From: Dyella sp. AtDHG13
GTDB taxonomy: Bacteria; Pseudomonadota; Gammaproteobacteria; Xanthomonadales; Rhodanobacteraceae
Direction of reading: 5' to 3'
Length of the DNA stretch: 64,000 bases
NCBI RefSeq assembly: GCF_003201105.1
Contig: NZ_QICJ01000008.1
Span: 124,001 to 188,000, forward strand
The first letter of the stretch is position 1; each line of letters begins with the position of its first letter. The position numbers and the translations under genes were made by a program. A model generated the notes under the pieces. It was not told the DNA's origin, searched no databases, and saw only the letters and a list, made by a program, of their open reading frames with translations. Shown in pieces: positions 12,438 through 64,000 of the stretch.

Positions 12438-12573
12438 CACCGTCATTCCGGCGTAGGCCGGAATCCAGTGACGGAAGTGATCGGTTATCGCGAGACGCAG
12501 CAAAGCATTCGACTCTTCGGCGAAAACCACGCCATGACGCCACTGGATTCCGGCCTGCGCCGGAATGACGGTG
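12438..12573. repeat. REP-like 136-bp inverted-repeat element, copy 1
   Basis: Two 33-base arms (12438-12470 and 12541-12573) are inverted copies with one mismatch. Each contains a nested palindrome ATTCCGGC..GCCGGAAT. The 70-base interior (with GATCGGTTATCGCG) also matches the interior of the element at 32308-32451 read in the opposite direction, so the whole unit is a dispersed element. It lies in the 249-bp gap between the TonB-less paralogue and the gamma-carbonic anhydrase gene, which hold opposite strands and converge here. Confidence 0.85.
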
Positions 12574-24988: not shown

Positions 24989-25171
24989 GCTCCCTCTCCC
25001 TTCCGGGGAGAGGGCTGGGGTGAGGGGTCAATCTCGCGAAGCCGCTCCGATGGGGCGGCTTTTTTGTTGCCCGCTAGACGCTTGGTGCTTGCCTGGATGA
25101 CGGCAAAGTTGAAGCCCTGAGGCGAGCACCCGCCCCTCACCCCAACCCTCTCCCCGGAGGGGGGAGGGAGC
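24989..25171. repeat. Inverted repeat with GGGGAGAGGG core arms around the parB terminator
   Basis: Two arms of about 38 bases (24989-25026 and 25133-25171) are inverted copies differing at about three positions. Each is internally palindromic (CTCTCCC..GGGAGAG) with a TGAGGGG flank. They bracket a 106-base centre containing the parB terminator. A single palindrome of similar core lies at 37678-37710. This is a REP/BIME-like arrangement. Confidence 0.75.
25040..25066 (+). terminator. Intrinsic terminator of the rsmG-parA-parB operon
   Basis: Nine-pair stem AGCCGCTCC / GGGGCGGCT (one T-G wobble) with loop GAT, followed by TTTTTT. Placed 76 bases after parB within the arms of the 24989-25171 inverted repeat. 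Confidence 0.9.
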
Positions 25172-32307: not shown

Positions 32308-32451
32308 CCCCTCACCATCATTCCGGCGCAGGCCGGAATCCAGTGGCGTCACGGCACGGCTTTCGCGAAAGAGCCAAACGCTTTGAGGTCACGCGATAAC
32401 CGACCACTTTCGTGACTGGATTCCGGCCTGCGCCGGAATGACGGTGAGGGG
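32308..32451. repeat. REP-like inverted-repeat element, copy 2
   Basis: Arms at 32308-32343 and 32413-32451 are inverted copies with a single mismatch over about 36 bases, each with the ATTCCGGC..GCCGGAAT palindrome. The interior, read on the minus strand, matches that of copy 1 at 12438-12573 (shared TCGGTTATCGCG). The unit is therefore inserted in the opposite orientation. It lies between the convergent TPR and algR-like genes. Confidence 0.85.
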
Positions 32452-52687: not shown

Positions 52688-52812
52688 GTAGAGGGAACCT
52701 CGGGAGGGGCGCGGGGGCGCGATGCGCCAGCTTAGGCACCGGTGTCCGTCGGTTTCATACGCCAGAAGTCATTGCCTGCTGCGCGCTACATGCCGGCGCC
52801 AGGGAGAGAACC

Positions 52813-53283
52813 TCAGTCCTTCGGACTCGTGCACGCCGCATAGCGGCGCCCTTCCACCTGCACCACGTCCTGGCCCTTGATGCTGATGCCGGCGGTGTAA
52901 TGCTCCGCCGAGTCGAACTTCACCCTGCCTCGCGCCGCATCCGTCAGGCCCTGGCATTGCAGCGTCCAGCTCAGTGCCGTGCTGCTGCGATGCGGATCGG
53001 CGCGCTCGCATTGCGTGTAGCCCGGCACGGGCAGCTGGGCGAACTCGGGCCACGGGTCCGGGCCTTCGTCCACGCAATGCCAGGCCACCTGCGGCGGGCC
53101 TTCCTTGCCGTGCTCGAACACGCGGGTGACGATCTTCCACAGGCCGGGCATGGCCTGGAAATCGCCGGGGTCGGCGTGGCCGGGCTCGCCGACGAAGGCG
53201 GCGCCCAGCAGCACCAGCACGGCGAGCGCACGGGCCACGGCGTGGCCGCGGCCTCCCGAAGCGGATGGATGGTTCGTTTTCAT
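52813..53283 (-). CDS. Exported DUF3617 family protein
   Basis: 156 residues. Signal peptide from MKTNHPSASGG through 'LAVLVLLGAAFVGEPGHA'. The mature part begins 'DPGDFQAMPGLWKIVTRV', the DUF3617 opening, with Cys residues in 'WHCVDEG', 'YTQCERA', 'LQCQGL' and 'AACTSPKD' that could form two disulfides. Periplasmic, function unknown. The start at 53283 is chosen because the signal peptide follows it; an extension to 53310 would reach into the terminator hairpin. Confidence 0.88.
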   Translation of the reverse strand: MKTNHPSASGGRGHAVARALAVLVLLGAAFVGEPGHADPGDFQAMPGLWKIVTRVFEHGKEGPPQVAWHCVDEGPDPWPEFAQLPVPGYTQCERADPHRSSTALSWTLQCQGLTDAARGRVKFDSAEHYTAGISIKGQDVVQVEGRRYAACTSPKD

Positions 53284-53311
53284 GGGCGGCGACGATTCCC
53301 GACACAGCAAG

Positions 53312-53336
53312 AACCCCGCCCTGCATGGGCGGGGTT
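53312..53336 (-). terminator. Hairpin terminator after the phosphoesterase gene
   Basis: Ten-pair perfect stem AACCCCGCCC / GGGCGGGGTT with a five-base loop. On the minus strand it is followed by CTTGCT, so the T tract is weak. It lies 17 bases beyond the phosphoesterase stop and before the DUF3617 start. Confidence 0.7.
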
Positions 53337-53353
53337 CGATCCCTGCTATTGGA

Positions 53354-55366
53354 TCAGTCCTGTGTTTCAGCTGCTGCGTAGCTGTGGCCGTGGCCGTCGC
53401 GGTCGAAGTCGAACATGTTCATCAGGTTGCCGATGGCCGGCGCGTTGAGCGGCACATACGGGTTGTTGGGCAGCGACACCGGGTTGGGCAGGTTGTCGCG
53501 GCTGCGGCTGGAGATGGTTTCGTGCAGGCCCCAGTTGGCTTCCACGAATTTGTCGAAGGACACGTGGTCGTAGTAGGTGTGCACCACGCGGCCGCCTTCG
53601 GAGAAGCGCGACACCACCAGCAGCGGGATGCGCGTGCCGTCGCCGAAGAAGTCCACCGGCTGCACGTAGCCCGAATCGTAGTAGCCGCCGCCTTCGTCGA
53701 AGGTCACCATGATCACGGTGTCGTTCCACACCTTCGGGTTGGCCTTGGCCATGTCCACGATCTTCTTCACGTAGCCTTCGAACAGATCCAGCTTGGACGA
53801 GGCCGGATGGCCGTCCAGGATGCCGTCCGGCTTGGCGATGGACACCGCCGGCAGCGTGTCGTTCTGGATGTCGTTGTACAGGTCGGTGATGTCCTGGTTG
53901 TTCGCGCGCAGCTTCGGATTGGTCATGACCTGCGTGGAGTACAGGAACGGATCGCAGATGTTGCAGAACGTGCCGGCCTCGCCGTTCTCCTTGCCGCCCG
54001 CATAGCCTTCGCCGTAGTACTTCCACGACACGTGGTGGCGGGTGAGCAGCAGCGCGAGGTTGTCCTGGCGCGTCGGCGGGATGGTGAACTGGTTGGCGCC
54101 CAGCGGCGCCGGCGTGCCGTCGCCCAGGTAGCCCGGGTTGTAGTTGTTCACCAGGTAGTACGCGTTCTTCTTGCAGTCGGTGCCGTGGAAGGTGTGGTAC
54201 GGCAGAGACTTGAGGTAATCCTTCACGGCGCCCACGCCGGGCTGTGTGTCATCGGCGCAGTTCACGTAGGAGCCGCCGCTGTAGCCGTCCTGCACGTACC
54301 AGTTGTTGGTGCCAGGCTGCGCGTCGGGATTTTCGATCTGGTTCGACGGCGGTGTGGCCGGTTCGCCGTTGGCATCGGCGTAGTAGATCAGGTCGCCGAA
54401 GCCCAGCATGATGTGGTTGGCGCCCGTGCCGCCCATCACCGACTGGTGGAAGTTGTCGCTCAGCGTGTAGGTGCGGGCCAGCTCCGCGAAGTACGGCGCG
54501 TCGCCCTTGGCGATGTTGAGGAACTGCATCGCGGTCGAGCCTTCGCCCGTGGTCTGGTCGTCGAAGCCGGCCGGCTGCGCCTTGCCGTTGGTGCCCGCGC
54601 CCACGGTGGTTTCCACCCACGGGAACAGGTCCATGCGGCAACCGCTGGGGTTCTTCTCGGTAGCGGCGCTGGCGTCGCAGTCCATCTGCTGCCACATCTG
54701 GAAGAAGCGGTGCACCGGGCTGTTGGCGTAGTCGTCGTAGCTGATCGATGCATGCATGTCGACCGGCGCATTGGCCAGCACCGACGGGAAGCGCGTGTCC
54801 ACCACGTCGTTGGGCAGGCCGGTGCCGCCGGCGGCGAGCTCGCTGTAGGCGCTGGCCGGCAGGGCAGGCTCGATGGCCTGCGCCTGCGCGGCCGAGGCGA
54901 ACGGCGCCTGCGTGGGCGCGCCGCCGGTGTTCATGCGCGGCAGCGAGGTGTAGGCGGTGGTGTGCGTGGGCGCCAGCGCGAACTTGCCGGTGCTGCTGGC
55001 CTGCCACTGCCTGGCGGCCGCGACGTTCGGGCCCGGCGTGCCGTCGGCGTTGACGATGCCTTCGGACAGCAGGTTGTGCACGCTCTGGCCCTTCGGCGGC
55101 GTGTACGTGGCGAACACATGGTCGAACGTGCGGTTCTCGCCGATCAGCAGGATCACGTGCTTGATGGGCGTGCGGGTGCGATCGCTGCGATCGTCGCCGT
55201 CGCGGCCCGGCGTGTGCAGCACGGTGACGCCGCTCGCGGGAGCCTGTGCAGCCGCGGTGGCAGTCGGAGTGGAATTGCTCTGGGCGCTCACCACGCCGGC
55301 CAGGCCGACGGCAAGCGTACCAAGGGCAAGCGGCAACAAGCGCTTGCGGACGTGCGTCATGGACAT
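53354..55366 (-). CDS. Secreted phosphoesterase (acid phosphatase / phospholipase C superfamily)
   Basis: 670 residues. Signal peptide ending 'AGVVSAQS' near 28. The phosphoesterase (PF04185-type) core opens 'IKHVILLIGENRTFDHVFATY' (about 68-88), where Glu-Asn bind metal and Thr sits where the nucleophile lies in AcpA-type enzymes. Later metal ligands lie in 'VTFDEGGGYYDSGY' and 'YYDHVSFDKFVE'. Family members hydrolyse phosphomonoesters or phospholipids in the periplasm or outside the cell. Long Ala/Thr/Pro-rich N-terminal linker. Shine-Dalgarno AGGAGA nine bases before the ATG. Possible phosphate control is inference; no clear Pho box found. Confidence 0.9.
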   Translation of the reverse strand: MSMTHVRKRLLPLALGTLAVGLAGVVSAQSNSTPTATAAAQAPASGVTVLHTPGRDGDDRSDRTRTPIKHVILLIGENRTFDHVFATYTPPKGQSVHNLLSEGIVNADGTPGPNVAAARQWQASSTGKFALAPTHTTAYTSLPRMNTGGAPTQAPFASAAQAQAIEPALPASAYSELAAGGTGLPNDVVDTRFPSVLANAPVDMHASISYDDYANSPVHRFFQMWQQMDCDASAATEKNPSGCRMDLFPWVETTVGAGTNGKAQPAGFDDQTTGEGSTAMQFLNIAKGDAPYFAELARTYTLSDNFHQSVMGGTGANHIMLGFGDLIYYADANGEPATPPSNQIENPDAQPGTNNWYVQDGYSGGSYVNCADDTQPGVGAVKDYLKSLPYHTFHGTDCKKNAYYLVNNYNPGYLGDGTPAPLGANQFTIPPTRQDNLALLLTRHHVSWKYYGEGYAGGKENGEAGTFCNICDPFLYSTQVMTNPKLRANNQDITDLYNDIQNDTLPAVSIAKPDGILDGHPASSKLDLFEGYVKKIVDMAKANPKVWNDTVIMVTFDEGGGYYDSGYVQPVDFFGDGTRIPLLVVSRFSEGGRVVHTYYDHVSFDKFVEANWGLHETISSRSRDNLPNPVSLPNNPYVPLNAPAIGNLMNMFDFDRDGHGHSYAAAETQD

Positions 55367-55715
55367 GACTTCGTTCTCCTGCAGCGATCCCTGGGAAGGG
55401 CTGCGTGAGTGGTCCCCCTGATTGACCGGCGCCTGTTCGCAACGTGGAGGGGCGCGGCCGGCGGCGAGTCTGGTCCGCGCAGATGACGGACCCTTGGCGC
55501 TTTTGCGACAGCGATGACGCGCTAGATGACAGTGCCAAGACGCCGCAAATCCTTGCGCGCCTGCATGCAGCGCAAAGCCTGTGGCTACGCGATCAACGCG
55601 TGCGGTGCGCGCGACGCGTTCGCCCTGTCGGCAAGAAATTGCTTTTGCATCGATGCAGGAAGAGGGTGCGGAAGTGTGCGATATCGCACGCTCGCGCGAC
55701 GGCGCGCACGCGGCC
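55367..55715. other. 349-bp intergenic region with two perfect palindromes
   Basis: No gene seen. TGCATCGATGCA (55646-55657) and GTGCGATATCGCAC (55676-55689) are perfect palindromes 18 bases apart just downstream of the oxidase gene's stop. They could be operators for the phosphoesterase gene (starting 280-310 bp away) or transcript-end structures of the oxidase gene. No T tract follows either. No confident promoter elsewhere. Confidence 0.4.
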
Positions 55716-57371
55716 TCACGCCGGCAGCAGCTGGAACGGCCGCATCATCTCGTTGTCTTCGTGCTCCAGCAGATGGCAGTGCCACACGTAGCGGCCGGGC
55801 TCGCCCTCGAAGCGCGCGATGATGCGCGTGACCATGCCGGGGTCGGCACGCACGGTGTCCTTCCAACCCATCTCTTCAGGGTCCGGCGGTATCGCGGGCC
55901 CGGTGTACTTCAGCGTCTTGCTCTCGTTCCACGCGAACAGGTCGAACGGCCGGCGATCGAGCACCTGGAAGCGCACCAGGTGCAGATGCATCGGATGCGC
56001 ATCGCCGGTGAGGTTCACCATGCTCCAGATTTCCGTGCTGTCCTGCCGCGGATCTTCGGTAACGGGCGCCGACCAGTGCTTGCCGCCGAGCATCATCATC
56101 ATCGGGCTGCCGCCGGCGTCGTCCTGTTCGCCCAGCGTGAGCACGCGTTCGCGCACGGCGCTGGCCGCGGCGATGCGCTCGATGGTGCGCAAGGTGGCCG
56201 GCACCACGCTGGTGTCCTTGCGGCCGCGATCGCGCACGCGGAATGCCATGATGGCTTCCGCCTGCTGGCGCAGCTGCACCTGCTTGCCGTCCATGCCGGA
56301 GAAATCGATGATCACGTCAGCACGCTCGGCCGGATACAGCGTGACGTGCGGGCGCGTAAGCGGCGCGGCGAGCAACCCCTGGTCGCTGGCGATCTGCTGG
56401 AAGCTCAAACCGTCGGACAACGACAGCGCATAGAAGCGCGTGTTGGCGGCGTTGATCAGGCGCAGGCGATAGCGGCGCGGCTCCACCTCCAGGTAGGGAT
56501 ACAGCTTGCCGTTGCACAGGATGGCGTTGCCCTGGCATTCGGACACCCACGGCGCATCCGGATCGTCGGACACGGGGTAATACAGCTGCCCGTCCGTCGC
56601 GATCAGCCGGTCGCACAGGATCAGCGGCAGATCGCATTCGCCCGTGGGCAGGTTGAGCGCGCGCTCCGCATCGTCCTCGATCAGGTACGCCCCGAGCAGG
56701 CCGGCGTAGATGTTCAAGCGCGTGATGCCCATGGCGTGGTCGTGATACCACAGCGTGGCCGCATCCTGCGCGTTGGGATAACGGCTGACGGCCGAACGGC
56801 CGGGCTCGAACCAGTCCTCCGGATAGCCATCGCTCGATGCCGCCACGCGCGCGCCGTGCACGTGCGCCACGGTGCGCACTTCCGGCTTGTCGCGCTCGGC
56901 GCCGTGGATGTTGTGGTCGATCGGCAGGAAGTGTTTCGTCGGCAGCGCGTTCGCCCATTCGATCAGCAGTGTTTCGTTGCGCCTGGCGACGATGGTGGGG
57001 CCGGGAAACGCGCCGTTATAGCCCCATAGCGGCGTTGGCGGCAGGTCGCGATGCAGCTTCGCCTTGAACGCGCGCATCTCCATCCGGTACAGCGGCAACT
57101 GTCGGCCAGGATGCGCGGGGTCGCTGTGCTGGCCCACCGGCTTGGCCACGGCGGGCAATGGCAAGGGATCCACGAAGCGCGCCAGCGTTACCGGATTCAC
57201 CAGTGGCACCTTGGGCGCGGCGAGCGGCGGCATGGCCATGCGCGGCATCTTCTCGTTGCCGATGGCGGGCGCGGGCCATGCCAGCAGGCCCAATTCCATC
57301 GCCGTGGCCGCGCCGGCCATATCGAGCAGGCCACGCAGGAACTGGCGGCGTGAAGCGTTGGTGCGAGTCAT
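55716..57371 (-). CDS. Multicopper oxidase (CotA/bilirubin-oxidase-like), Tat-exported
   Basis: 551 residues. Twin-arginine signal 'SRRQFLRGLLD' at 7-17, so export is in folded form. Copper ligands in the four expected places: 'VAHVHGA', 'LWYHDHAMG', 'HPMHLHLVRF' and the C-terminal 'WHCHLLEHEDNEMM', whose Cys is the type 1 ligand and whose Met nine or so residues later is axial. Closer to CotA/bilirubin oxidase than to CueO; the cluster 'GGSPMMMML' is Met-rich but short. Substrate unknown (phenols, bilirubin or metals possible). Confidence 0.93.
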   Translation of the reverse strand: MTRTNASRRQFLRGLLDMAGAATAMELGLLAWPAPAIGNEKMPRMAMPPLAAPKVPLVNPVTLARFVDPLPLPAVAKPVGQHSDPAHPGRQLPLYRMEMRAFKAKLHRDLPPTPLWGYNGAFPGPTIVARRNETLLIEWANALPTKHFLPIDHNIHGAERDKPEVRTVAHVHGARVAASSDGYPEDWFEPGRSAVSRYPNAQDAATLWYHDHAMGITRLNIYAGLLGAYLIEDDAERALNLPTGECDLPLILCDRLIATDGQLYYPVSDDPDAPWVSECQGNAILCNGKLYPYLEVEPRRYRLRLINAANTRFYALSLSDGLSFQQIASDQGLLAAPLTRPHVTLYPAERADVIIDFSGMDGKQVQLRQQAEAIMAFRVRDRGRKDTSVVPATLRTIERIAAASAVRERVLTLGEQDDAGGSPMMMMLGGKHWSAPVTEDPRQDSTEIWSMVNLTGDAHPMHLHLVRFQVLDRRPFDLFAWNESKTLKYTGPAIPPDPEEMGWKDTVRADPGMVTRIIARFEGEPGRYVWHCHLLEHEDNEMMRPFQLLPA

Positions 57372-57464
57372 CCGGCGACCTTAGGCAGGCCGGATGACAG
57401 TCGCGTGGCAAAGCGTGAAGGGCCGCTCACCCCGCGCGCACGCTGGCGCGAAGGGCGAGGTCGC

Positions 57465-58934
57465 TCACTCCGCGGAGGCCGGAACGCCCTGACCGGTGGT
57501 GGGTGCCTGCTGGCCGGCGACGGCGGCCACGTCGTCCTGCCCTGCTTTCTCGATGGGCGTGGCGAGCATGCGTGCGCGGCGCCAGCCGCCCCACTTGTAG
57601 TAGCCCATGGCCATCAGCATCGAGGCGAGCGAGCCCAGCGGAAAACTCCACCAGATGGAGTCGGCGCCAAGATGCGGCGCCAGCGCCACGGCGAACGGCG
57701 GACGGATCAGCCACATCGAGATGAACAGGATCACCAGCGGCGGCACCACCGCGCCGGTGGAACGCACCACGCCGAACAGCACGAAGGTGACGCCGAAGAA
57801 CATGAAAGACCACACCGCGATGCTGTTGAGGTGCTCGGCCAGCGTCAGCGCCTGCGCGTCGTTGGGCAGGAACAGCCCCAGCGCCGCGTGATTGAACAGG
57901 TAGATCACCCCGATCAGGCAACCGCTGAGCAGGAAGTTGTAGAGCACGCCCACGCGCGTGATGCGGCTCACGCGATCCCACAGCCGGGCGCCCACGTTCT
58001 GCGCCGCCATGGAGGACACCGCCGCGCCGATCGCCATCGCCGGCATCTGCACATAGGTCCACAACTGCGTGGCGGCGCCGTAAGCCGCGGTGGTCTTGGA
58101 GCCGTACTCGTTCACCATGTGGATCATGATCATGGCGGAGCTGGAGATCACGATCATCTGCAGGCCCATCGGCAGGCCCTTCACCACCAGCGAACGCAGG
58201 ATTTCCCGATCCGGCCGCAGATAGCCGAGCTCGTGGCGGGTCAGGCGCAGGAAGTGCTTGCGCCGGTACAGCGTGAACACCAGGGCGAACAGCGCGATGG
58301 TCTGCGCGATCAGCGTGGAGGTCGCCGAGCCGGCAATGCCCAGGCGCGGAAACGGCCCCACGCCGAAGATCAGCAAGGGGTTGAACACGATGTCCATCAG
58401 CACCGACAACGCCATGAACACGAACGGCGTGCGCGAATCGCCCGCGCCGCGCAGCGTCATCATCAGGAAGTTGTAGAAGAACATCGACGGCACGGCGACG
58501 AAGATGATGCGCAGGTACGGCACCGCGAAGGCCTGCGCATCGGCCGGCGTGTTGAGCGCGCGCAGCATCCACGGCGTGCCGACATAGCCGCCGATCGCCA
58601 CCAGCACCGATACCGACACGAAGAACGTCACGCCGGTGCCCACCACGCGCTTGGCCTCCAGCATGTTGCGCGCGCCCAGGCTCTGGCCGATCAGGATGGT
58701 GCACGCCATGCTCAGGCCGAACACCGCGCCGAGCAGCAGGAACAGGATCAGGTTGGCGTTGCTCACCGCCGTGAGCGCCGCTTCGCCCAGGTAGTGGCCG
58801 ATCCACATGGCGTTGACCGAGCCGTTGAGCGACTGCAGCACCGTGCTGCCCAGGATGGGCAGGGCGAACATCAGCAGCGTGCGCGCGATCGGTCCTTCGG
58901 TAAGCAGCGGCTGCCTTGCAGCAATGGATGACAT
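57465..58934 (-). CDS. MATE family efflux transporter
   Basis: 489 residues with 12 membrane helices in two homologous halves. 'PILGSTVLQSLNGSVNAMWIGHYLGEAAL' region and 'MACTILIGQSLGARN' in the N-half, and 'AIGAAVSSMAAQNVGAR' in the C-half, are MATE hallmarks. Exports drugs or metabolites using Na+ or H+. The start MSSIAARQP at 58934 was chosen because upstream sequence would overlap the DUF2239 gene's 3' end. The DUF2239 gene ends 32 bp upstream on the same strand, so the two may be co-transcribed. Confidence 0.94.
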   Translation of the reverse strand: MSSIAARQPLLTEGPIARTLLMFALPILGSTVLQSLNGSVNAMWIGHYLGEAALTAVSNANLILFLLLGAVFGLSMACTILIGQSLGARNMLEAKRVVGTGVTFFVSVSVLVAIGGYVGTPWMLRALNTPADAQAFAVPYLRIIFVAVPSMFFYNFLMMTLRGAGDSRTPFVFMALSVLMDIVFNPLLIFGVGPFPRLGIAGSATSTLIAQTIALFALVFTLYRRKHFLRLTRHELGYLRPDREILRSLVVKGLPMGLQMIVISSSAMIMIHMVNEYGSKTTAAYGAATQLWTYVQMPAMAIGAAVSSMAAQNVGARLWDRVSRITRVGVLYNFLLSGCLIGVIYLFNHAALGLFLPNDAQALTLAEHLNSIAVWSFMFFGVTFVLFGVVRSTGAVVPPLVILFISMWLIRPPFAVALAPHLGADSIWWSFPLGSLASMLMAMGYYKWGGWRRARMLATPIEKAGQDDVAAVAGQQAPTTGQGVPASAE

Positions 58935-58966
58935 CGAAAGAGTTCCGCGAAAGGGGAAAGGGGGAA

Positions 58967-59563
58967 TCAGTCGCCCGCGACGGCGGCCTGCCATGCGCGC
59001 GCCGCGAGCCGACGCACATGCTCGCGCACATCGGCGGGCCATGCATCCGTCAATTGATGGAAACGCTCGCGCTCCTTGCGCCAGAACGCGCGCGATGCTT
59101 CTTCGTGATGGGCCAGGTTACCCGTCATCGCGCTCATGAAGCGATCGACCGCCTCGCCCGCCAGGCGCACGGCATCGCGCTCGCGATGGCTGCGACGCGC
59201 TTCCTCCACCAGGCGCCGCAAGGTCGCCGAGGCGCCGCCCGGCTGTTCGGCCAGCCAGTCCCAGTGCCGTGGCAGCAAGGTGACCTCGCGCGCGATCACG
59301 CCAAGGCGCGGACGGCCGGGGCCGCGCGGCGCGGGTTCCTCGTCCGTCGATGGCTTGGGCAGGCGGGCGAGCACGTCGTCCGGCGCGCCGCGCAGGTCCA
59401 GTTCCACCGGTCGGCTACTGAGCTCGTCGAAGACCAGCACCGGTCCCGCGGCACCGGCATCGACCGCGCGCTTGACCGCCAGCGCTACCTCGCTCAGCGA
59501 ACCCGATGCGATGCGACGGTGGCCATCGAAGGCGATGCAGGCAGGCGTATCGGCCATCGGCAT
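58967..59563 (-). CDS. DUF2239 family protein
   Basis: 198 residues. 'CIAFDGHRRIASGSLSEVALAVKRAV' and 'LVFDELSSRPVELDLRG' match the DUF2239 N-terminus. The middle 'APRGPGRPRLGVIAREVTLLPRHWDWL' and 'GGASATLRRLVEEARR' are also typical of the family. 'GRPRLGV' looks like an AT-hook-type DNA-binding patch, and the following helices resemble a ribbon-helix-helix-like unit, which is my inference. Cytoplasmic, function unknown. Precedes the MATE gene. Confidence 0.9.
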   Translation of the reverse strand: MPMADTPACIAFDGHRRIASGSLSEVALAVKRAVDAGAAGPVLVFDELSSRPVELDLRGAPDDVLARLPKPSTDEEPAPRGPGRPRLGVIAREVTLLPRHWDWLAEQPGGASATLRRLVEEARRSHRERDAVRLAGEAVDRFMSAMTGNLAHHEEASRAFWRKERERFHQLTDAWPADVREHVRRLAARAWQAAVAGD

Positions 59564-59682
59564 TGTTTTATCCGGGTATAAACAGGGCGCGCAGTGTGCG
59601 CCGGCAGGGCGCCAAGGTCAACAGGCGCCGCCGGTCCCAGGCCGCGCGCTACCATTTGCCCACTTTCCGCAAAGCGTGCCCC

Positions 59683-60603
59683 ATGGTCATCCACCCGCCG
59701 CAACGCTCGCTCCGGCTGATGCTGTTCACCCTGCGCGGCTCGATCATTCCGGTGATCTGGAAGCGCGTGCTCGGCATGATGCTGCTGTCCGTCGCCGTGG
59801 TGGCGGTGGAACGGCACCTGCCGCGCACCGGCGTGGAACTGGGCGCCATTCCGCCCACCCTGATGGGGCTGACGCTGGCGATCTTCCTGGGCTTTCGCAA
59901 CACCGTGGCCTACCAGCGCTGGTGGGATGCGCGAACCCTGTGGGGCGAGCTGCTGATCGTGCTGCGCAACCTTGCCCGCCAGACCATGAGCCTGCCCGAG
60001 GGCCTCAGTGTGCAGGAGCGCGAACGGATGGTGCACCGCCTGATCGCCTTCGCCCACGCGCTGCGCCATCACCTGCGCGGCACGCCGCCCGGCGACGAGG
60101 TCTCGCGTTGGCTCACGGCGGAGGACCAGGCGGCGCTCGCGGGCCGTCCCAATCCGCCGAACCTGCTGCTCGGGCTGATCGCGCAGGGCTACGCGCAGCT
60201 GCATCGCGACGGCCGGCTGGATGCCATCCTGCTGGCCAGCATCGATGCGCAGGTGACGCGCGCCTCGTACGTGCTAGGCGGCTGCGAGCGCATCCAGGGG
60301 ACGCCGATTCCGTTCGCCTACATCCTGCTACTCCATCGCACCGTCTACATCTACTGCCTGCTGCTGCCGTTCTGCCTGATCGGCAGCGTGGGCTGGGTGA
60401 CGCCGCTGATGGTGGGCGTGCTGTCCTACACCTTCTTCGGGCTCGATGCGCTGGGCGACCAGATCGAGAACCCGTTCGACCGCCTGCCCAACGACCTGCC
60501 GCTCGACGCCATGTGCCGCACCATCGAGATCGGCCTTGGCGAACTCCTGGGCGAGCACGACCTGCCGGCGCCGCTGCAGCCGGTCGACGGCGTGCTCATG
60601 TAA
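59683..60603 (+). CDS. Bestrophin family ion channel-like protein (YneE-like)
   Basis: 306 residues. 'LFTLRGSIIPVIWKRVLGMM' and 'LAIFLGFRNTVAYQRWWDARTLWGEL' are the conserved bestrophin blocks, and 'DALGDQIENPFDRLPNDLPL' is the family's acidic C-terminal signature. Bacterial bestrophins form pentameric channels in the inner membrane, and Klebsiella homologue KpBest conducts cations. Start ATG at 59683; an upstream frame reaching 59506 would overlap the DUF2239 gene antisense. Divergent from DUF2239 with 119 bp between. Confidence 0.94.
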   Translation: MVIHPPQRSLRLMLFTLRGSIIPVIWKRVLGMMLLSVAVVAVERHLPRTGVELGAIPPTLMGLTLAIFLGFRNTVAYQRWWDARTLWGELLIVLRNLARQTMSLPEGLSVQERERMVHRLIAFAHALRHHLRGTPPGDEVSRWLTAEDQAALAGRPNPPNLLLGLIAQGYAQLHRDGRLDAILLASIDAQVTRASYVLGGCERIQGTPIPFAYILLLHRTVYIYCLLLPFCLIGSVGWVTPLMVGVLSYTFFGLDALGDQIENPFDRLPNDLPLDAMCRTIEIGLGELLGEHDLPAPLQPVDGVLM

Positions 60604-60874
60604 GGCGAAGCGCAACAGCGCTTTTTGCAGAAAAACGGGATTTCGCAAGCCCCACGTCAGCCCTTGCCGTAGTTTTACGGTGATTTCGGCACGTATTTCA
60701 CACGGGCCGAGACAGACTGTTGCCGTGCGCAAAAAAGGACCCCCCGCGCACTTGTGCCGCCCAGGCAACGCACTGTTGCCTCGATTCGACCTATTTCCAG
60801 TACCGGTCGGTCCAGTTAAGTAATTATACTAGGCGGTGCATAAATCCCTCCCCAAGCAAAAAAGAAGAACTGCC

Positions 60875-61390
60875 ATGCGATCTTCCCTCCTGCGCAGTGC
60901 CGCAGCGTTCGCACTGATAGCTGTTTCCGCCTCGGCCGTGGCCGACCCGCGCATCGAAATCAACGGCGGCCGAAGCTACTCCGACGGCTACTGGACCAAT
61001 ACCGCCTGGATCGAAGCCATCTGGGGCGAGCACAACCTCGGCAACAGCCGCATCACCTGGGCGCCGATGGCCTCGCTGGGTTTCATCAACGGCCGCAACG
61101 TCGCGCGCTACGGCAACGCCGTGTCCGATGACGTGTGGCTGGGCGGCGGCGGTTTCCGTATCCGCTACGGCGGCGCCGACGACTGGTATCACCACCTGTT
61201 CTGGAACACGGAAATCGCTGTCCAGGCCGGACGCACCTTGGCTTTGAGCAGCGGCGGCGAGTTCGTCAACTCCGTGGGCTGGGCTGGCGAGCACTGGACT
61301 TTCCAGATTCGCCATGCGTCCAACGCGGGGATCAAGGGGTCCAATCGAGGCGAGACGATGGCGCTGGTGGGGTTTGCGTTCAATCCCTGA
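60875..61390 (+). CDS. PagL-like lipid A 3-O-deacylase (acyloxyacyl hydrolase)
   Basis: 171 residues. Signal peptide 'MRSSLLRSAAAFALIAVSASAVA'. Eight-strand barrel of PagL size. The catalytic stretch 'RHASNAGIKGSNRGETM' supplies His147, Ser149 and Glu160, fitting the PagL His-Ser-Glu triad pattern 'H.SNAG'. It ends 'GFAFNP' rather than in a terminal Phe. PagL removes the 3-O acyl chain from lipid A in the outer membrane and lowers endotoxicity. Shine-Dalgarno AAAGAAGA; a TATACT at 60825-60830 may be the -10. Followed by an intrinsic terminator. Confidence 0.88.
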   Translation: MRSSLLRSAAAFALIAVSASAVADPRIEINGGRSYSDGYWTNTAWIEAIWGEHNLGNSRITWAPMASLGFINGRNVARYGNAVSDDVWLGGGGFRIRYGGADDWYHHLFWNTEIAVQAGRTLALSSGGEFVNSVGWAGEHWTFQIRHASNAGIKGSNRGETMALVGFAFNP

Positions 61391-61417
61391 GGCGTGTGGC
61401 TAGTGATGGATACGATG

Positions 61418-61446
61418 ACGGCCCTTTGGGGCCGTTGTTGTTTGGA
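61418..61446 (+). terminator. Terminator of the pagL-like gene
   Basis: Seven-pair stem ACGGCCC / GGGCCGT with loop TTTG, followed by TGTTGTTTGG. T-rich tail is interrupted but serviceable. Lies 28 bases after the stop. Confidence 0.7.
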
Positions 61447-61548
61447 TGGCTAAATGGATTTGGCGGGTGTTTTGCGTGAGGCTTTGTTCTGCTCTCTTTG
61501 CGCGGTTTGGAGGGCTGGGGCATGGTGCTTCGTGGTGGTTTGGGTCAC

Positions 61549-62045
61549 TTGCCTCGCCGTTTCATTCTTTAGCCGTCATTCCTGCGAAGGCAGGAATCCA
61601 GTGACTTTGCGCTGGGTTGTCGCGTAAAGGTTGATCGGCTCTTTTCAGCGTTCCCGCAACCTGGCCGCCTGCGCGGCGGGCGTTCCGACCTCCTGCCGGA
61701 GGCCGGGTCACTTTCTCTTGCTTGCCCAAGAGAAAGTAACCAAAGAGAAGGGCCGCCCGGAATCGGCGCCTATCGGGCTGAAGCCCGATAGGTTCGCGGA
61801 CGGGTTGCGGGGTTTGTCGACAGGGCATCCTGCCCTGACGACAAACTGGCTCGCATCCTTGCGAGCCACCCTGCGGGCTATTCCTCCACCCGCCCGCCGC
61901 CTCATACGGGGACCCGTAGATCAAGAGCATCGAGCCGACGGCTCGTGCCGCTGCGCGGCACATTGCGTCGTGGCAGGCGCTGAGCGCCTGCTTCAGAGCA
62001 CAAGTGATGCGCTAATGACGGCTAAAGAACAAAACAGCGAGGCAA
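61549..62045. mobile_element. 497-bp MITE-like element with 32-bp terminal inverted repeats and a hairpin array
   Basis: The ends 61549-61580 and 62014-62045 are inverted copies, 29 of 32 bases identical, with a perfect inner block TTCTTTAGCCGTCATT of 16. Inside lie at least eight perfect or near-perfect hairpins: 61578-61597; 61710-61737 (11 pairs); 61769-61792 (11 pairs); 61812-61846 (8+7 pairs); 61848-61867 (8 pairs); 61905-61918; 61931-61945; 61946-61960; 61974-61990 (8 pairs). No frame in it looks like a protein. The left end also matches half of the REP-like element seen at 12438 and 32308. No target-site duplication is obvious. It lies between the PagL-like gene and the RND pump gene. 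Confidence 0.75.
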
Positions 62046-62129
62046 GGCCGCACTCACCATCGTAAAGTTGGCAATGCGCCATAAAGACAGCACCGCCCCG
62101 CGTCCAACAAGAGCGAGAAAAACCAACCC

Positions 62130-64000
62130 TCACCCCGCCGCCATCTGCGCCTTCAACGCGCGCTTCGCCGCTTTCTTCTCGCGACGTTTCTCCTTGCGGA
62201 TCTTGCGATCGTAATTCCACAGATAGATCGCCGGCGTGCTCAGCAAGGTCAGCAGCTGCGACACCAGCAGGCCACCCACGATGGCTACGCCCAGCGGCTG
62301 GCGCATTTCCGAGCCCACGCCGAAGCCGATGGCCAGCGGCAGCGCCGCGCCCATCGCCACGAGGGTGGTCATCGTGATCGGGCGGAAGCGCACCAGGGCG
62401 GCTTCCTTGATCGCGTCGGGTGGCGACAGGCCGCGTTCGCGTTGCGCGACGAGGGCGAAGTCCACCATCAGGATCGCGTTTTTCTTCACGATGCCGATCA
62501 GCATCAGGATCGCGATGATCGCCATCAGGGTGAGCTGTGTCTGCGTCACCAGCATGGCGAGGAAGGCGCCCATGCCTGCGGCCGGCAGGGTGGAAAGGAT
62601 GGTCAGCGGGTGGCCCAGGCTTTCGTAGAGGATGCCGAGCACGATGTACATCGCCACGATGGCGCCGATGAGCAGCACCATGCCGTTGCTCTTGGCCTGC
62701 TGCAGGCGCTGGTTCTGGCCGGTCCATTCCACGCGCACGCCTTCGGGCAGGCCCGCGAGGATCGCAGCGTTGCTCACCAGGCGCGTGCCCACGTCCTGCG
62801 ACACGTCCTTGGCCAGGTTGTAGGTGATGGTCGAGGCTTCCAGCTGGTTGTGGTGGCGGATGCGCATCGGGCTCATGTTGGGCTCGATATGCGCGATGGC
62901 GGACAGCGGGATCATTTCCGCCTTCGCGTTGCGCACGCGCACGTTGAGCAGGGTCTCGGGGCTCAGCGAGGTGGCGGAGCTGGAGGTCAGCACCACCCAG
63001 TACTGGTTGATGTCCGAGTAGATGATCGACACCTGCCGCTGGCCGAACGAGTTGAACAGCGCGGTGTCCACGTCGCCCATGGTCACGCCCAGGCGGCTGG
63101 CGGCGTTGCGGTCCACCTTCAGCTTCTGCTGCTTGCCGACCAGGTCGAAGTTGCTGCCGACGTCGCGGAACTCCTTCATCTTGCGCATCTGCTGCACCAT
63201 CTTCAGCGTCCACGGCTGCAGGTCTTCGCCGTTGCTGCCGATGAGCTGGAATTCGTAGGCGCCGCCCTTGTCGCCGCTGCCGCCGCCGCCGAGGAACTGC
63301 ACCAGGCTCAGCGACACGCGGATGCCGGGAAGCTGGTCGTACTGCTTGGCGAGGCGCTCCATCACCACCTTGGCGCTGTCGTGGCGATCGTTGGGGCCGC
63401 TGCCCTTGGGCTTGAGGTCTACGAACATGCTGCCGGAGTTGCCCACCGCGCCGGTGCCGTCGTTGCCGCCCAGCGTGGTGAGCACGTCGAGCACGGCCGG
63501 GTCCTTCTTCATGATGTCGGCGGCCTTCTGCGCCTGCGTCGCCATCAGCGTGGGCGAGATGTTGGCGTCCGCGCGGATGTCGCCCTGGATCATGCCGATG
63601 TCTTCCTCGGGCATGAAGTTACCGCCGGCGGTCGCCACCACGGCGGCGCCCAGCGCGAAGGTGGCCAGCAGCAGGATGATCGGCTGCCAGCGCATCAGCC
63701 GGCGATGGCGCATGGCCCAGTCCAGGCCGCGCTCGTACACGCGCTGCACGCCCTTGTCGAAGCGCTCCAGCGCCTGCTCCACGCGGCCCGGCGTGCGCTC
63801 GCCCGGCTCCTCGTGCTTGAGGAACTTGCCGCACAGCGCCGGCGTCAGCGTGAGCGACACGATGGCCGAGATCACCACCGCCACCGCCAGCGTCACCGAG
63901 AACTCGCGCAGCAGCTTGATCAGCATGTTGTTGCCGAACAGCAGCGGCGCGAACACCGCCACCAGCGACAGGGTGATCGACACCACGGTGAAGCCGATCT
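62130..64000 (-). CDS. RND multidrug efflux permease (AcrB/MdtB/MdtC-like), partial
   Basis: About 622 C-terminal residues of an inner-membrane RND pump; the N-terminal 400 or so lie beyond the right edge. Visible sequence opens 'IGFTVVSITLSLVAVFAPLLF' (TM5 region of RND pumps). It then shows the large periplasmic loop with PC/PN-type subdomains ('GNFMPEEDIGMIQGD') and the last helices 'MLIGIVKKNAILMVDFAL', whose Lys takes part in proton relay. The relay Asp pair of TM4 is outside the window. The tail is strongly basic (KEKRREKKAAKRALK). Resembles MdtB/MdtC or HAE1 pumps; the substrate is unknown. Partner adaptor genes would lie beyond the edge. Confidence 0.92.
   Translation of the reverse strand, partial: IGFTVVSITLSLVAVFAPLLFGNNMLIKLLREFSVTLAVAVVISAIVSLTLTPALCGKFLKHEEPGERTPGRVEQALERFDKGVQRVYERGLDWAMRHRRLMRWQPIILLLATFALGAAVVATAGGNFMPEEDIGMIQGDIRADANISPTLMATQAQKAADIMKKDPAVLDVLTTLGGNDGTGAVGNSGSMFVDLKPKGSGPNDRHDSAKVVMERLAKQYDQLPGIRVSLSLVQFLGGGGSGDKGGAYEFQLIGSNGEDLQPWTLKMVQQMRKMKEFRDVGSNFDLVGKQQKLKVDRNAASRLGVTMGDVDTALFNSFGQRQVSIIYSDINQYWVVLTSSSATSLSPETLLNVRVRNAKAEMIPLSAIAHIEPNMSPMRIRHHNQLEASTITYNLAKDVSQDVGTRLVSNAAILAGLPEGVRVEWTGQNQRLQQAKSNGMVLLIGAIVAMYIVLGILYESLGHPLTILSTLPAAGMGAFLAMLVTQTQLTLMAIIAILMLIGIVKKNAILMVDFALVAQRERGLSPPDAIKEAALVRFRPITMTTLVAMGAALPLAIGFGVGSEMRQPLGVAIVGGLLVSQLLTLLSTPAIYLWNYDRKIRKEKRREKKAAKRALKAQMAAG

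Follow-up and report, generated by a model that had tools for sequence, protein, structure and literature searches.

A REP-bounded intergenic repeat of Dyella sp. AtDHG13 with a putative CsrA-decoy RNA core

Results

The DNA analysed here, called the window, is a 64-kb stretch of the genome of Dyella sp. AtDHG13. The element under study occupies positions 61548 to 62046 and is intergenic, lying between two convergent open reading frames (ORFs). By eye and from the translation alone, the left-hand ORF (60836-61390, plus strand) is PagL/OmpW-like and the right-hand ORF (62130-63986, minus strand) is RND transporter-like; the stop codon of the latter is 83 nt from the element. Coding sequence was rejected as an explanation, the ORFs overlapping the element being judged spurious by eye, and a search of Rfam at the curated cut-offs gave no match anywhere in the window.

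The initial annotation had described long terminal inverted repeats and an array of hairpins, and we recovered both. The terminal repeats comprise 33 nt each (61548-61580 on the plus strand, 62014-62046 on the minus strand), are 91% complementary and reach one base beyond the ends first given. By script, ten hairpins were found within the element (exact stems of at least 5 bp, loops of 4-7), including 61689-61702, 61710-61737, 61769-61792, 61821-61837, 61847-61868 and a REP hairpin at 61578-61597. The fold z-score was -11.0 for the plus strand as RNA and -12.5 for the minus strand as DNA, and in both cases 0 of 100 dinucleotide shuffles folded as well. Three more hairpins lie beyond the conserved core described below, between 61931 and 61991 (61931-61945, seen by eye, 61945-61961 and 61973-61991).

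The left terminus carries a CGTC-tagged REP (61574-61601, plus strand) with an 8-bp stem starting with AT, a 4-nt loop and a CCA tail, matching the description of CGTC-1 REPs in section 6 of PMC3733652. Judged by eye, the likeness of the right terminus to the left end stops within the REP after CGTCATT; the copy in the window has a single arm, and its right terminus ends inside the REP. It had been claimed that the left terminus reuses half of a REP found elsewhere in the window, and this proved correct: the REP (five matches, 0 expected) recurs at 12441-12570 and 32316-32443. These two regions are inverted pairs of CGTC REPs, the members of which are ~100 bp apart.

Mobilisation by a TnpA_REP-like route, which had also been suggested, is unsupported because a Y1/REP transposase was not found in the Dyella genome: the Y1_Tnp family (PF01797) had 0 matches there, and the control search was positive in E. 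coli. Within the genus, Y1 genes occur in 11 of 20 genomes, and genomes without one are still rich in matches to the element (64 in G010, 68 in G011 and 50 in G012). Four of the 15 Y1 places were made into loci, and no such REP, triplex hairpin (see below) or family match was found within ~1.5 kb of these four. REPs mobilised by RAYT/TnpA_REP (BIMEs) have a GTAG tag and a Y1 (HUH) tyrosine transposase in the genome; here the tag is CGTC and the transposase was not found. Taking these results together, we reject TnpA_REP mobilisation for this genome. The transposase search, which covered the Y1_Tnp family only, gave no candidate that accounts for the spread of the copies. In the account of PMC3733652, CGTC REPs have no dedicated transposase and no known means of spreading.

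The element is multicopy; a single-copy region would have spoken against the initial annotation. The genome contains at least 75 matches to the element and its flanks (601-base query; 40 of 177 candidates scored). Among 31 core copies of at least 280 nt, including that of the window, the median pairwise likeness is 89.7% and the maximum 99.1% (465 pairs); the two cores that are 99.1% identical lie ~20 kb apart. Two inverted arms were detected by the module finder in 14 loci of this genome, and such two-armed forms are ~1.1 kb long. Terminal inverted repeats and many copies are the hallmarks of MITEs and other non-autonomous transposons, and both are present here.

Homologues in relatives form a repeat family with common termini. 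Family matches occur in all 20 genus genomes, our own among them. At the level of the order, a DNA search found matches in 48 of 200 genomes, with few candidates scored per genome, and a covariance-model search in 45 of 121, the E-values of this model (R1) being rough. A scan of a genome collection returned at least 118 stretches; the 80 listed include candidate members from Rhodanobacter, Dyella, Xanthomonas, Pseudomonas, Stutzerimonas, Variovorax and Thiobacillus, and a Holosporales stretch that was not member-like on inspection. A strict pattern search across the phylum matched 1 of 398 genomes, which says little about the spread, because the same pattern misses the copies of our own genome. 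Plasmid and phage origins were rejected: matches occur in only 2 of 72,556 plasmid records, or 3 when the query was shortened, and in 0 of 50,697 phage records. Family matches were likewise absent from 20,395 E. coli records. In the fusobacterial replicon of Ilyobacter polytropus (NC_014633.1, 663205-663254) a stretch of 52 bases matches the triplex hairpin at 88.5%, with six places there. In open-licence papers, judged by their titles and abstracts, we recognised no description of the composite element, which does not prove that none exists.

Empty sites in sister strains had been proposed as a check, and copies are indeed present or absent at orthologous loci. At one locus (L009), 84-92 bp without family sequence separate the conserved flanks in six of seven sisters; the seventh has 712 bp with family matches and our genome 1420 bp. 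The empty sites L236-L241, from six sisters, have by eye, between the convergent genes, a short stem-loop of variable sequence, where our genome has the 1.1-kb form. At a second locus (L012), 9 of 19 sisters have both flanks, six of them with family matches and three without; in the other ten, whose left flank falls outside the locus, family matches lie beside the right flank in six and none were found in four. Next to the RND-like gene of the window locus, G018 has a gap of ~60 bp, and the gap in G009 contains nothing but another hairpin. Family matches stand beside this gene in G005, G012, G015 and G006, and G008 and G001 show a related hairpin, the loop of which is enlarged; G010 and G013 were left out of this reading. 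By eye, L223 and L225, also beside the RND-like gene, contain triplex-type hairpins with a further hairpin cluster in place of the loop. Since presence varies among sisters at orthologous sites, copies evidently come and go. Empty sites were thus seen, but the intergenic DNA is too diverged for placing the junctions of a target-site duplication.

The element also sits at the breakpoint of an 8.6-kb block (52800-61457), which, in each of the ten sisters fetched, points the other way with respect to the RND-like gene. The far breakpoint has no family copy. A simple inversion was rejected: in the nine sisters examined, the sequence beyond the block is absent from the window except for short repeats, and the rearrangement was therefore larger or had several steps.

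Beyond what had been noted initially, we found a branched core fold, GGA loops conserved on the minus strand and a co-varying third strand on one hairpin. The core spans 61682-61914, and its fold is common to 28 selected copies from several genera. These copies (alignment A3) are 28 of the 39 rows of alignment A2, which holds 39 of 102 cluster representatives of 213 arms; an alignment of modules (A1) comprised 47 of 48 chosen modules. L101, L110, L117, L133, L137, L147, L155, L180, L186, L205 and L209 were left out of A3 owing to gaps, inserts or a Pseudomonas-type middle.

RNAalifold predicted 64 pairs from these rows, and 44 of them change on both sides, so that the stems pass the covariance check that had been called for. 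Pairing was possible in 97.0% of 1779 cells (shuffles 80.7 ± 0.5), and the covariation score was 0.458 (shuffles 0.160 ± 0.008); for every fold measure, 0 of 500 shuffles reached the observed value. When the partner was slid by 1-3 columns as a control, 41-49% of the cells paired. The test leans towards structure, because the rows tested are those from which the structure was inferred. The fold comprises, on the minus strand, hairpin H2 (61685-61706), an outer closing helix (61756-61759/61907-61910; four pairs, one changed on both sides), hairpin H4 (61768-61793) and a long-range helix (61796-61811/61883-61897; 8 of 11 pairs changed on both sides) enclosing H5, H6 and a 3-bp hairpin.

These pair counts are those of the aligned plus strand. 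G-T and A-C swap places when the minus strand is read, and 1675 of 1779 cells pair there (94% compared with 97%). Wobble is scarce outside the long-range helix (8 G-T and 11 A-C among 1444 cells), which is compatible with palindromes kept perfect at the DNA level. The long-range helix itself has 34 G-T and 6 A-C among 308 cells, and a column pair that was set aside (92-120) is G-T in 26 of 27. Both would fit the plus strand, if either, and not the strand with the GGA loops.

One hairpin is part of a module on the minus strand (61706-61754). It consists of a stem (61706-61720/61727-61741), a third strand (61742-61749) and a loop (61721-61726) that can pair with a tail (61750-61754), by three of four pairs in window-type copies. 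The tract that follows the stem mirrors its purine strand: across 26 stem types the mirror identity in a fixed register was 0.855, compared with 0.662 ± 0.026 by permutation (0 of 5000). Registers ±1 were below chance and register +2 had a small excess (44 of 5000 permutations). A direct-repeat relation, which did not exceed chance in register 0 and did so slightly at -1 (167 of 5000 permutations), was rejected, as was a Watson-Crick relation, which was at chance level. Read on the minus strand, the third strand matches a parallel Hoogsteen pattern (T.A-T, C.G-C) at 0.927 over 22 stem types, compared with 0.710 ± 0.033 when permuted (0 of 10000). At most one Hoogsteen break occurs in 117 of 123 modules, and 66 have none. 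For this test antisense readings were excluded and a purine-rich third strand was required; the mirror test left four antisense readings among 132 modules, and an earlier third-strand test that included antisense readings gave 0.734 against 0.558. Among 131 six-base loops, 106 can pair with the tail at all four bases; seven sequence combinations are represented, and a single fixed offset accounts for 101 of the 106. This count takes the best of four offsets without a permutation control.

Along the minus strand, the tail comes first and is followed by the third strand, one side of the stem, the loop and the other side of the stem; the module is thereby predicted to form an H-type pseudoknot in which loop 1 occupies the major groove of stem 2. 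Telomerase RNA contains an H-type pseudoknot of the same topology, and the pyrimidine-motif triple helix is the type compatible with RNA. Going by sequence only, 61706-61749 also has the Y-R-R blocks of at least 8 nt of a class II intrastrand triplex motif. The genome contains 50 exact TM_ECO motifs (backward control 0), 16 of which lie within 50 bp of a family match. Elsewhere in the window, 24992-25026 (plus) and 25134-25168 (minus) form an inverted pair of G/C-rich TM_ECO-type triplex motifs. Support for the triplex comes from the covariation of the third strand and not from the motif search alone; the functionality of bacterial triplex motifs, an old question, therefore becomes directly testable.

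Two neighbouring hairpins of the minus strand display GGA in their loops, H5 (61812-61846) with C-AGGAT-G (61827-61831) and H6 (61847-61868) with C-AAGGAT-G (61855-61860 in the helix of the alignment). The A(N)GGA hairpin loop is the recognition motif of CsrA/RsmA. In the 28 rows, minus-type A(N)GGA loops occur in H5 of 28, H6 of 26, H4 of 15 and H2 of 2, and in the triplex hairpin and H7 of none; GGA is absent from the opposite strand of all six loops tested. Over 199 arms, GGA is present in 403 of 655 hairpin loops on the minus-type strand and in 41 of 655 on the other, and hairpins elsewhere in the same loci gave 24 and 32 of 588 for the two strands. Two or more GGA loops occur in 146 of the 199 arms, and several GGA hairpin loops per RNA are also a feature of RNAs that sequester CsrA/RsmA.

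In our genome, which has one csrA gene, hairpins of any kind occur in 32 of 46 arms found, and at least two GGA loops are carried by 30 of the 32, giving 61 in all. The remaining 14 arms have no hairpin and hence no GGA loop, which counts against a decoy function. These 14 are second arms of two-armed copies, L009 1565-1764 and other left arms, in which no hairpin of at least 6 bp follows the triplex module.

The window copy has no match to TwoAYGGAY (RF01731), neither at the gathering score nor at E<=10, and thus falls outside this family by the cut-off of the covariance model; its two adjacent GGA loops are AGGAT and AAGGAT, not AYGGAY. RF01731 matches were found in five loci, four from Pseudomonas/Stutzerimonas and L209. 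Seven of the ten matches listed exceed the curated 43 bits, and six of the ten lie opposite a mapped module, at H5-H6, with four in neighbouring arms. RF01731 belongs to Rfam clan CL00106, together with RsmY and RsmW.

Among 86 placed copies, 33 lie in convergent, 51 in tandem and 2 in divergent gaps, compared with 43, 194 and 62 background gaps without a module; 44 copies at the edges of loci and 4 that overlap predicted genes were set aside, and gene contexts come from codon-usage gene calls made in this analysis. An earlier count of 88 that included sister loci gave 43, 44 and 1. According to PMC3733652, REPs likewise avoid divergent gaps. In tandem contexts the GGA strand showed no preference for the direction of the neighbouring gene (25 co-directional, 30 not), which speaks against an RNA role, as does a search for sigma-70-like promoters in 61380-62400, which gave no match. 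A strand preference of the module in a first set (19 vs 7, p 0.029) was not reproduced (20 vs 13, then 25 vs 30 for GGA arms) and was discarded. The minus strand has three terminator-like sites, including H6 (shuffles 1.0 ± 1.2).

Discussion

Among the readings offered by the initial annotation, two are reasonable, namely a non-autonomous element and a structured RNA, while the TnpA_REP-like route is not supported. Our preferred interpretation, to which we assign a probability of about 0.5, is that the element is a copy of a non-autonomous, REP-bounded intergenic repeat with a TwoAYGGAY-like CsrA-decoy RNA core. Transcription of the minus strand, for example by read-through from the RND-like gene, would produce an RNA displaying two hairpins with A(N)GGA loops next to the triple-helix pseudoknot. 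The displayed GGA loops may bind CsrA/RsmA, and dozens of copies could then titrate the regulator as a dispersed decoy or serve as 3'-end tags. If the GGA arms are transcribed, ~60 such loops per genome would constitute a large, dispersed CsrA buffer. We put forward a wider proposal more tentatively: a mobile family might scatter CsrA/RsmA decoys, braced by a co-varying triple-helix pseudoknot with the topology of telomerase RNA, through many genomes of a bacterial order, copy number and sites setting the pool of free regulator.

A purely DNA-level selfish repeat of the foldback or BIME-like kind is a rather doubtful alternative that still deserves serious attention. Single-stranded DNA would fold during replication or transcription and be recognised at its loops by some enzyme, and the likeness to CsrA targets would be incidental. 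The CGTC-REP end and the 33-nt terminal inverted repeats would be expected of such an element, as would the short empty sites in six of seven sisters at one locus, the two nearly identical cores ~20 kb apart and the two-armed inverted forms; the near lack of G-T wobble in the local hairpins and the missing orientation preference also agree with it. However, the GGA loops are strand-asymmetric, relatives have matches to an RNA family in the CsrA clan, the third strand on the GGA strand is of the RNA-compatible pyrimidine type, and the Y1_Tnp search revealed no transposase candidate.

Improbable in our judgement is a structural 3'-end element, which would act between genes as a bidirectional transcription barrier or mRNA stabiliser and would have no dedicated protein partner. 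Such a role would account for the rarity of divergent placements, for the terminator-like sites of the minus strand and for the stem-loop that six sisters have in place of the element at one locus, but it leaves the conserved GGA loops unexplained, and selection against promoter damage would give the same placement. Neutral debris, in which template switching corrects quasi-palindromes and so creates hairpin co-variation without function, predicts stems of almost perfect Watson-Crick pairing with scarce wobble intermediates, as the local hairpins show, but is quite improbable because template switching yields inverted or direct repeats and not a conserved mirror relation of the third strand, and because the loops are conserved although the stems change.

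The CsrA-decoy reading can be compared with several known systems. With CGTC-tagged REPs, including the Neisseria dRS3 mosaic elements, as portrayed in PMC3733652, our element shares the CGTC tag, 8-bp stem, 4-nt loop and CCA tail, the mosaic association with other repeats and the want of a known dedicated transposase; it differs in having a structured body of 0.5-1.1 kb between REP ends. The intrastrand triplex motifs (PIT/TM_ECO) of PMC4666352 have the same Y-R-R block order and stems of 8-10 nt. In contrast to these, the core module is rich in A/T, co-varies across genera in both its third strand and a loop-tail pairing, and has the RNA-compatible pyrimidine-motif topology on its other strand.

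TwoAYGGAY resembles the core in its two neighbouring GGA-loop hairpins within a closing stem, and Pseudomonas/Stutzerimonas members match at H5-H6. The window copy differs in giving no match, and its hairpin pair lies inside a longer fold with a triple-helix pseudoknot and within a REP-bounded multicopy element. TwoAYGGAY was regarded in PMC2864571 as a probable RNA that is probably not cis-regulatory, and PMC4333381 already proposed that it binds CsrA. The family described here thus joins TwoAYGGAY, an RNA motif of unproven function, with CGTC REPs, whose means of spread is not known.

CsrB/RsmY/RsmZ-type RNAs and RsmU, finally, likewise have several stable hairpins with GGA loops on a single strand. 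These RNAs are encoded at dedicated single loci, whereas the element occurs in tens of dispersed copies and its transcription is putative. RsmU of Xanthomonas is presented in PMC7694677 as an RsmA-sequestering sRNA derived from a 3'UTR, and, as a point against the decoy reading, a change of all four of its GGA motifs is reported there not to have abolished RsmA binding in vitro.
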